From Desulfofustis sp. PB-SRB1 (GTDB lineage Bacteria; Desulfobacterota; Desulfobulbia; Desulfobulbales; Desulfocapsaceae), in the NCBI GenBank assembly GCA_016722945.1, contig JAEQMT010000023.1, positions 62,001-126,000 of the forward strand: a stretch of 64,000 bases of DNA, written 5' to 3'. The notes under the pieces were generated by a model. It did not search any database. It was given only the letters and a program-made list of their open reading frames with translations, and had not been told where the DNA came from. Numbering within the stretch: the stretch's first letter is position 1; the number at the start of each line of letters is the position of its first letter. Made by a program: the position numbers and the translations under genes. Below, in pieces: positions 53,816 through 55,602 of this stretch.

Positions 53816-54352
53816 TTAAAATCGTGATCCCGGCTGCTGCAAAAATGTTTCCTCGGCGGCAGTACTCACTCTGCCAAGCAATTGATTGCGATGGGGATAA
53901 CGGCCGAATTCTTCGATAATGCGCTGGTGCTTGATTTCCCATTTCAGGTTTTCCTCCAACCCTTCCTGGCTGTAGAGCCGTCGTGCCTCTTCGTGAATAA
54001 CGAGTGATTCACTGTGCATGTACGGCAAATAGAAAAAGCTTTTCATCTCCGGTGCCAACTCGTGGTCAGCGCCCCGTGCCACCCCCTCCTGGGCCAGTGC
54101 CAGGGCGAGGGGATCAGTGGCAAAAGCCTCAGCCGAATCCCTGAACATGTTGCGGGGAAACTGATCGAGAATGATGATTTCGGCCAGCCTGCCTTGAGCG
54201 GTGGTACGCCAGTCAAAGAGCTCGCATCGGCGTGCCCGCAGGTATCGGTTCATGAACCGCCGGCGGATGATCTCATCAAAGGCTACATCTTTTGTAAAGC
54301 GCTGGGCGGGGGTTGTTTCGCTAAACCAGAAGTCGATGATTTCAGTATGCAT
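53816..54352 (-). CDS. DUF924 family protein
   Basis: 178 residues from the ATG at 54352. Family hallmarks are EIIDFWFSE at the start, then IILDQFPRNMFR and FFYLPYMHSE and HQRIIEEFGRYPHRN. DUF924 proteins are TPR-like; their function is not established. An upstream in-frame ATG at 54448 would add residues with no family match. Confidence 0.85.
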   Translation of the reverse strand: MHTEIIDFWFSETTPAQRFTKDVAFDEIIRRRFMNRYLRARRCELFDWRTTAQGRLAEIIILDQFPRNMFRDSAEAFATDPLALALAQEGVARGADHELAPEMKSFFYLPYMHSESLVIHEEARRLYSQEGLEENLKWEIKHQRIIEEFGRYPHRNQLLGRVSTAAEETFLQQPGSRF

Positions 54353-54430: not shown

Positions 54431-54919
54431 ATGCAAGAAGATAAACACTGCACCGTGGTTGTACCGACAATGCTTGGTCGAATTATGTGCGTGGGTGACA
54501 GCCGGGCGATTTATTCTATCTCACTCAGGCCCAGGGCAGCGCAATTGGCGGAGGCGAACGATGAAGCAATACTGCCGCCCCTAATGCAAGAGGCCAGGCG
54601 TCAGTTGGAGGCCTATTTTGCCGGTAAGCTGACCAGTTTCGATCTGCCGTACAGGCTGACCGGTACCCCATTTCAGAAGCAGGCCTGGAAAGAGATGGCA
54701 GCCATTGGGTTTGGCCGGGTGCGCAGCTACGGAGAGATTGCCAAAATACTGGGTAACCCGGGTCTGGCCCGGGCGGTGGGCGGGGCCGCCAACCGCAATC
54801 CACTTCCCCTGGTGGTGCCGTGACACCGGGTGGTGGGCGCCGGCGGCGCCCTTGGCGGCTTTGCCTCAGGCAGCACCATGAAACGGGCATTGCTCAAACA
54901 CGAAGGGGTGGAGTTATAA
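54431..54919 (+). CDS. ogt: methylated-DNA-[protein]-cysteine methyltransferase with Sec at the active site
   Basis: 162 residues when the in-frame TGA at 54821-54823 is read as selenocysteine 131. The sequence before it has the alkyltransferase motifs (GTPFQKQAWKEM, VRSYGEIA, ARAVGGAANRNPLPLVVP); after it comes HRVVGAGGALGGFASG and KRALLKHEGVEL. The TGA therefore sits exactly where family members have Cys in PCHRV, the residue that accepts the alkyl group. Reading stops at TAA 54917-54919. A perfect hairpin begins 11 bases after the TGA. The start at 54431 has a weak ribosome site. The gene is divergent from the DUF924 gene. Confidence 0.88.
54835..54851 (+). promoter_or_regulatory. bacterial SECIS-like hairpin of the alkyltransferase
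   Basis: GGGCGCC (54835-54841), loop GGC, GGCGCCC (54845-54851): a perfect seven-base stem of 17 nucleotides in total, beginning 11 bases after the TGA. The 11-base spacing and 17-base size equal those of E. coli fdhF, and the loop is the same as in the mvhD hairpin. Confidence 0.75.
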
Positions 54920-55033: not shown

Positions 55034-55312
55034 GTGATAAAATCGTTTAAGCATAAAGGGCTACGTAACCTTTTTGAGAAGGGAAGCGTATCTGGAATTC
55101 AACCAAGTCACAAGCAGAAGCTCAGAATGCGCCTCATCGCACTCGATACAGCAACATGTATTGATGATATGAATGTTCCGGGCTGGCGGCTCCATAGTTT
55201 GAAGGGAGACCGTCAAGGATTGTGGTCGATAGATGTCAACCGAAATTGGCGTATTGTGTTCGAATTCAAGGACGGCAACGCCTACCTTGTGGACTATGAG
55301 GATTACCACTAA
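55034..55312 (+). CDS. higB: HigB-family toxin
   Basis: 92 residues of the RelE/HigB fold: IKSFKHKGLRNLFEKG, HKQKLRMRLIALDTATCIDDMNVPGWRLHSLKGDR and NWRIVFEFKDGNAYLVDYEDYH. The family cleaves mRNA in the ribosome. Toxin before antitoxin is the Hig order. The start codon is GTG or an early ATG. Confidence 0.88.
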   Translation: MIKSFKHKGLRNLFEKGSVSGIQPSHKQKLRMRLIALDTATCIDDMNVPGWRLHSLKGDRQGLWSIDVNRNWRIVFEFKDGNAYLVDYEDYH

Positions 55313-55602
55313 TGACTATGTATAACCCTCCCCATCCAGGGGAATTTATTCAAGAAGTATATTTGAAACCGCTGGGGATGTCGGCACGAAGTGTTGCGCT
55401 GCAACTAAAGGTCTCCCCTTCAACATTTGTAAGAATATTGAAAGGGCAAAGCTCAATCAGTCCAGCGATGGCTCTTCGTTTATCCAGATGCTTAGGTCGT
55501 AGCCCGGAAAGCTGGCTCCATATGCAAGATAGTTATAACCTTTGGCATGCAAAGAAAAGTTTAGATCTTTCCGAGATAAACCCGATCCAGGTACCTGCTT
55601 AA
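55312..55602 (+). CDS. higA: HigA-family antitoxin
   Basis: 96 residues with a HigA-type helix-turn-helix: NPPHPGEFIQEVYLKPLGMSARSVALQLKVSPSTFVRILKG and LSRCLGRSPESWLHMQDSYNLW. Its ATG overlaps the higB stop (TAATG), so the two are co-translated. It neutralises HigB and represses the operon. Confidence 0.9.
   Translation: MTMYNPPHPGEFIQEVYLKPLGMSARSVALQLKVSPSTFVRILKGQSSISPAMALRLSRCLGRSPESWLHMQDSYNLWHAKKSLDLSEINPIQVPA

Follow-up and report, generated by a model that had tools for sequence, protein, structure and literature searches.

The gene and its protein family

The forward strand of the window (the whole 64,000-nucleotide stretch analysed here) carries at positions 54431–54919 a single continuous frame of 130 codons, a TGA, 31 sense codons and a TAA (54917–54919), that is, 162 codons from the ATG with one in-frame TGA. 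With the TGA taken as a residue, the translation matches PF01035 over all 81 profile positions (3e-31, 107.5 bits, cut-off 27), the N-terminal domain PF02870 (1.9e-6, 28.8 bits, cut-off 21) and TIGR00589 (101.3 bits, cut-off 46.4). These matches agree with the initial annotation, in which the PCHRV motif of this DNA-repair family was read as P-TGA-HRV, in one frame with family-type sequence on both sides.

The TGA (54821–54823, residue 131), a predicted selenocysteine (Sec) codon, occupies the position of the alkyl-accepting cysteine (C145 in the human enzyme), and is aligned with the acceptor cysteine of four Cys relatives. In an alignment of 33 sequences, Y100, R114, N123, P130, H132, R133 and E158 are invariant. 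Tyr100 is encoded at 54728–54730, Asn123 (human N137) at 54797–54799 and Arg114 at 54770–54772, the last corresponding to the arginine finger, a role taken from those parts of the literature that were available. The 31 codons that follow the TGA (HRVVGAGGALGGF...LLKHEGVEL, 54824–54916) contain H132 and E158 of the catalytic network. The Tyr, Arg finger, Asn hinge, P-x-HRV and Glu of the Ogt/MGMT family are thus all present, and the nucleophilic cysteine is not, since TGA replaces TGY at the acceptor position. By analogy with an engineered human enzyme that works with Sec (see below), function may persist in the absence of the cysteine. An in-frame TGA aligned with the cysteine of homologues, with both flanks intact, is also what characterizes a bacterial selenoprotein. 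This confirms the original observation, namely Sec, as read from the TGA, at the sacrificial cysteine of an otherwise complete Ogt/MGMT protein.

A structure was predicted with the TGA supplied to the program as Cys (pLDDT 94.6). Solved MGMT structures take ranks 1–37 among its matches (TM 0.74–0.83), with values of 0.81 for 4wxd, 0.80 for 1qnt (human) and 0.79 for 1sfe, and the protein is therefore predicted to adopt the MGMT fold. In fold and sequence it resembles the Cys-type Ogt of M. tuberculosis, human AGT and the C-terminal domain of E. coli Ada, all of which carry Cys where the window protein has a predicted Sec.

The gene is flanked upstream by a divergent gene for a DUF924 protein (53816–54352; PF06041, 6.8e-61), and downstream by a HigB-type toxin (PF05015) and HigA antitoxin (TIGR02607) pair (55034–55602).

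Further loci and evolutionary history

A scan of 84,980 named species genomes for the P-TGA-HRV motif identified 85 further loci. The pattern required the Asn, P-TGA-H-R-V and hydrophobic spacers; the 85 loci are a lower bound, and conservation of the scanned residues among them is partly by construction. The chance expectation for this pattern is ∼0.5 (a hand estimate). By record title the loci span eight phyla, with titles including Thermodesulfobacteriota, Desulfobacterales or ‘Deltaproteobacteria’, Nitrospirae/Nitrospirota, Nitrospinota, Tectomicrobia, Planctomycetota, Bacillota or relatives, Fusobacteria and Chloroflexi, and some reading only ‘bacterium’. One named strain, Propionigenium maris DSM 9537 (locus L040; genome G224), carries a Sec locus. 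No record titled Carboxydothermus, from which the protein ABB14497.1 presumably comes, was among the matches in the 84,980 genomes, and a search for phage-borne Sec copies gave no match in viral contigs.

In all 85 loci the frame is open past the TGA, for at least 27 codons and with a common tail (in L092, for 23 codons to the contig end). Pairwise comparison of Sec relatives (20 pairs) gives pN/pS values of 0.21 upstream and 0.19 downstream of the TGA, similar purifying selection on the two sides; one retained pair (L016–L062) has a one-codon difference that puts its alignment out of step past the TGA (pN 0.54). The initial annotation had suggested searching for homologues with TGA or Cys at this site, and both were found; the decay past the TGA in relatives, which it held would count against its reading, is not seen.

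Among 395 genomes of the phylum, a shorter version of the motif with TGA occurs in five, at seven places; these genomes are that of the window and those of four Sec-MGMTs already counted above (L049, L057, L064 and L076). The same motif with TAA or TAG occurs in 0/395, and reversed-pattern controls matched in two genomes (TGA motif) and six genomes (TAA/TAG motif). The TGA motif is therefore found in Ogt/MGMT genes more often than expected by chance (5/395 versus 0/395). The window's assembly also holds two identical matches to the TGA motif in repeated sequence (G000, C6:27658–27682 and C7:5183–5207; L197 and L198), which were rejected as alkyltransferases, with only six codons open upstream and an unrelated repeat around them.

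For 50 of the 85 loci (L009–L058), the genomes were searched for SelB and for other PF01035 genes. SelB scores above the cut-off in 43/50; one further genome (G206) has a fragment below the cut-off, and six have nothing convincing. For 32 of the 50, PF01035 matches nothing but the Sec gene; nearly all are metagenome assemblies, where second PF01035 genes may be missing. Two Sec-Ogt genomes (L190 in G211, L191 in G225) also possess PF01035 paralogues with Thr (PTHR) or Trp (PWHR), which are ATL-like.

Besides the window gene, PF01035 matches one gene in the window's own genome, a full-length, Cys-type Ada with the motif PCHRA. The best-scoring relatives of the window gene in 257 genomes of its order are Cys proteins, 53–54% identical over most of their length, and no close Sec relative was found there; among the matches listed, G079 has the only other TGA. 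This G079 gene (L186), which groups with the Meg22 MAGs L010 and L066 and has a Gln in place of the Arg finger, belongs to another Sec-Ogt lineage within the window's family.

Two trees were used to place these sequences. In the more careful one (53 of 153 rows, hand-picked after the first tree was seen), the window protein falls together with four Cys proteins from its family, with support 98/87. Six changes of the Sec/Cys label are required on this tree, at least four of them forced by well-supported branches, and one change is sufficient in 0/200 bootstrap trees; for the same rows, the AU test rejects the constraint that puts all Sec sequences together (p-AU 0.0004). The quick tree (87 Sec and 66 Cys rows, six with long branches) needs seven changes, of which well-supported branches force only one. 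The tree rows leave out 18 duplicate loci and further rows of identical sequence, as well as the Ada-type PCHRA proteins (the window genome's own Ada included) and the Thr and Trp paralogues, because the pattern allowed only C or U as the nucleophile and only V, I or L following HR. Most Cys rows are from the window's order, and the thin sampling elsewhere, together with the hand-chosen rows, makes the number of gains uncertain. On these trees, the window gene probably represents a separate Cys-to-Sec switch, and bacteria seem to have made the swap on more than one occasion. Change counts do not show direction, but a lone Sec row within Cys rows would most simply be a gain.

Reading of the TGA codon

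The window's assembly (4.69 Mb, 97.6% complete) encodes SelA (611.5 bits), SelB (371.6 bits) and SelD (361.8 bits), the last with an in-frame TGA itself, and a tRNA-Sec (71.4 bits) with the anticodon tca as assigned by ARAGORN. All four components that the initial annotation proposed looking for are thus in the genome. SelB is common in the phylum (85/99 genomes), and its presence is therefore necessary but not diagnostic and proves little; against this background, the co-occurrence of SelB was not kept as evidence that discriminates. The long non-overlapping frames of the window end most often in TGA (18/35; stop-to-stop frames of at least 200 codons, some possibly spurious), which hence is not a general sense codon.

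A putative bacterial SECIS hairpin lies at 54835–54851, with a perfect 7-bp stem (54835–54841 paired with 54845–54851) and the loop GGC (54842–54844). As first annotated, it begins 11 bases past the TGA, and the distance from TGA to loop is 18 nt. The published rules for bacterial SECIS elements, in the excerpts available, specify a loop of 3–9 nt, a stem of 4–16 bp, a spacing of 16–37 nt, a G in the first two loop bases and an energy of at most −7.5. The window hairpin satisfies all of these (energy of the local hairpin −12.9, spacing 18), and none of the six listed Cys relatives of the window gene does. Taken alone, it is not significant against synonymous shuffles (z −1.24, p 0.14).

The same analysis was applied to 87 Sec genes (the window gene, the 85 loci and the G079 gene) and 66 Cys genes, scoring the best local hairpin with a loop start 15–26 nt after the codon against 300 shuffles each, which keep the protein and the codons of the gene. 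The scoring window was chosen with SECIS spacing in mind, and is identical for both groups. The Sec genes average −11.7 kcal/mol versus −6.1 for their shuffles, and 85/87 fall below their own shuffle mean; for the Cys genes the averages are −5.0 and −4.2 kcal/mol, with 34/66 below the shuffle mean. Individual hairpins reach p < 0.05 in 41% of Sec and 8% of Cys genes, a G is within the first two loop bases in 85/87 versus 29/66, and the full bacterial SECIS model is satisfied by 76/87 versus 4/66. The 11 Sec genes that fail it, mostly through weak energy, include all four from Fusobacteria. In a set of 29 hand-picked representatives of the Sec lineages, all 29 are below the shuffle mean. An earlier test that folded the whole 51 bases gave a weaker difference (median z −1.05 for Sec, −0.38 for Cys).

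Covariation was assessed in 16 of the 17 sequences that share the window's register (L064, a near copy of L015, was left out); the register was itself derived from these sequences, a bias towards pairing. Paired stem cells amount to 92.9% versus 76.1% after shuffling, stem cells changed on both sides to 14 versus 4.6, and the covariation score is 0.492 versus 0.217; each of these values is reached by 0/500 shuffles, and the signal is lost when the partner strand is slid. Two of the five measures fall within the shuffles, namely the number of pairs with two-sided changes (4, reached by 80/500) and of further pair types (8, reached by 116/500), in these 16 sequences. Hairpin columns 17–29 are GC in ten sequences and CG in six, columns 18–28 are CG, GC, UG or AU, and the outermost stem pair fails in 5/16. 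The covariation that the initial annotation suggested looking for is thus borne out as compensatory changes by three measures, and not by the other two. A second alignment (A2, comprising 25 of 26 sequences in its register, all but L072) was not counted, as the aligner placed gaps inside the stem.

Prior reports, proposed mechanism and alternatives

A Sec form of this enzyme is known as a predicted family, the swap having been predicted before but little noted. The part of the 2008 GOS survey available to me lists a predicted Sec-containing methylated-DNA-protein-cysteine methyltransferase, for which the GOS set contributes a single Sec sequence (PMC2398784), so that the initial annotation was right in recalling such predictions from metagenome surveys. 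Reviews from 2022 and 2026 (PMC9312934, PMC13188914), again in the parts available, include it among the predicted selenoprotein families of prokaryotes, the example being ABB14497.1. Like the window protein, these are PF01035 members with Sec for Cys; the listings offer one Sec sequence and one example accession, whereas here there are 85 loci, several apparent switches, hairpin statistics and, in the window, a lineage that lies near the Cys forms in its family. Two other papers (PMC1794560 and PMC12013277) contain no mention of the enzyme terms. A literature search, with most subscription papers outside its reach, turned up no experiments on a natural Sec-MGMT and no study of how it is distributed. 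The new elements here are the breadth, the apparently repeated origin, the hairpin statistics and the 32/50 genomes in which the Sec form is the only alkyltransferase detected; judging from the sequences, Sec-MGMT would appear to be more widely spread, and the switches more numerous, than in the texts consulted.

SECIS type and Sec synthesis differ between the algal MDP protein and the bacterial system. From the portion of its report that was available (PMC7539508), the algal MDP belongs to the same enzyme family and is also a selenoprotein, but is eukaryotic, while the window protein is bacterial. A functional parallel is an engineered one: in the accessible part of that study (PMC4150793), E. 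coli making human AGT with Sec145 (as a mixture of Sec and Ser forms) is protected from MNNG and grows about as well as with the Cys form, while the Ser145 form is not protective. There, N137A inactivates the Cys form and not the Sec form, and the authors cite a pKa of 5.5 for Sec versus 8.6 for Cys. The position is identical to that in the window protein, but the human C145U variant was made via UAG and EF-Tu and is not natural, whereas the window gene uses TGA. The natural Sec forms keep the Asn equivalent to N137, mostly by construction of the scan. When the Asn was not demanded, in the 395 genomes of the phylum, its loss was not seen, as the four other real matches keep it; all four were already among the 85 loci.

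Building on the frame, family, TGA, hairpin, machinery, relatives and tree described above, I consider with high confidence that the best explanation of the gene is a Sec-inserting, single-use alkyltransferase of the Ogt type. The product would be a stand-alone O6-alkylguanine-DNA alkyltransferase in which SelB, the Sec-tRNA (anticodon TCA) and the hairpin past the UGA place selenocysteine at residue 131. The likeliest course is the ordinary alkyltransferase mechanism with a selenolate nucleophile: the enzyme would bind DNA and turn the alkylated base out into its pocket, where a single-step transfer of the alkyl group to the selenolate would yield Se-alkyl-selenocysteine and exhaust the protein. 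The Sec form most likely descends from a Cys Ogt of the kind found in its bacterial family, and a separate Cys-type Ada is also present. This is essentially the reading of the initial annotation, supported by the machinery in the genome and the undecayed relatives; as it suggested, Sec would raise nucleophilicity at a cost of one Sec per repair event. Against the explanation stand the p of 0.14 for the window hairpin alone, the absence of a close Sec relative in the 257 genomes of the order, the two covariation measures that do not exceed shuffling, and the SelB counts, 85/99 in the phylum and only 43/50 among the Sec genomes.

Since the genome has an intact Cys-type Ada and the window gene is without a close Sec relative, the TGA might be a nonsense mutation in a decaying, truncated Ogt pseudogene, with Ada performing the repair. 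I find this very unlikely, since frame, catalytic residues and tail are intact, the TGA falls exactly on the active-site codon as in 85 other loci, and the SECIS-type hairpin is present here and absent from the six listed Cys relatives. An assembly or sequencing error over a true TGC or TGT is conceivable from a single assembly of the species, but such an error would not supply a SECIS-compliant hairpin too and would hardly strike the one codon where relatives have TGA, making this a most improbable origin. Decoding of the TGA as another residue such as Trp would yield a non-repairing alkyltransferase-like (ATL) protein, for ATLs, in the published passages available, carry Trp at the acceptor position. 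With TGA as the commonest end of long frames in the window, a tRNA-Sec with anticodon TCA present and SECIS-type hairpins in the Sec genes, the probability of this is close to nil. The codon here is TGA, not one for Trp, and PF02870 is present, while ATL proteins are not known to have the N-terminal domain. Finally, it follows from UGA recoding that low selenium could cause a stop at the UGA, and with a Cys Ada also in the cell the 130-residue product, or its absence, might be what matters. Such a selenium-gated switch is highly improbable, given that the tail past the TGA is constrained in relatives and that there is no sign of a functional truncated form.

In the parts of the survey available, most selenoproteins of known function are oxidoreductases (PMC2398784). 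These reuse their Sec, whereas in the preferred single-use reading it would be consumed stoichiometrically in DNA repair. That the switch apparently recurred, in many cases with no Cys backup detected, raises the question of what Sec buys, the candidate gains being faster transfer, oxidation resistance or turnover, and the collection strain Propionigenium maris DSM 9537 makes this question testable. Turnover would imply a multi-turnover enzyme, with a thiol or another enzyme cleaving the Se-alkyl bond and regenerating Sec, and would account for the repeated adoption of a costly residue. Its probability is nonetheless very low, as the catalytic residues match the single-turnover family, no second Cys is common to more than 10/87 Sec proteins, and 34/87 are without any other Cys in the compared region. 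The neighbourhoods point the same way: in 584 mechanically called and clustered ORFs around 86 Sec genes (window included), no recurrent neighbour suggesting recycling or resembling a regenerating enzyme was seen among the 30 most frequent clusters, which were judged by eye from their sequences, one being scanned against families. The broader idea that Sec makes the suicide enzyme renewable, a thiol or some unnamed partner reopening the Se-alkyl bond so that each molecule repairs many lesions, is a long shot; if correct, it would explain both the repeated conversion to costly Sec and the frequent status as sole alkyltransferase.

The commonest neighbour cluster, upstream of the Sec gene in deltaproteobacterial loci, corresponds to TIGR01212, the tRNA-modification radical SAM protein MnmL/YtqA. 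It was rejected as a repair partner, as the family gives no reason for such a role and the gene is absent from the window. By tblastn, neither the window nor the Cys loci examined (∼1.5 kb flanks) has a match, while the gene is upstream in 27/85 Sec loci, among them L012, L013, L016, L033, L055 and L072, with that of L043 only 25% identical. In 16 of the 20 loci measured, this gene has its stop 43 bases past the earliest possible start of the Sec-Ogt.
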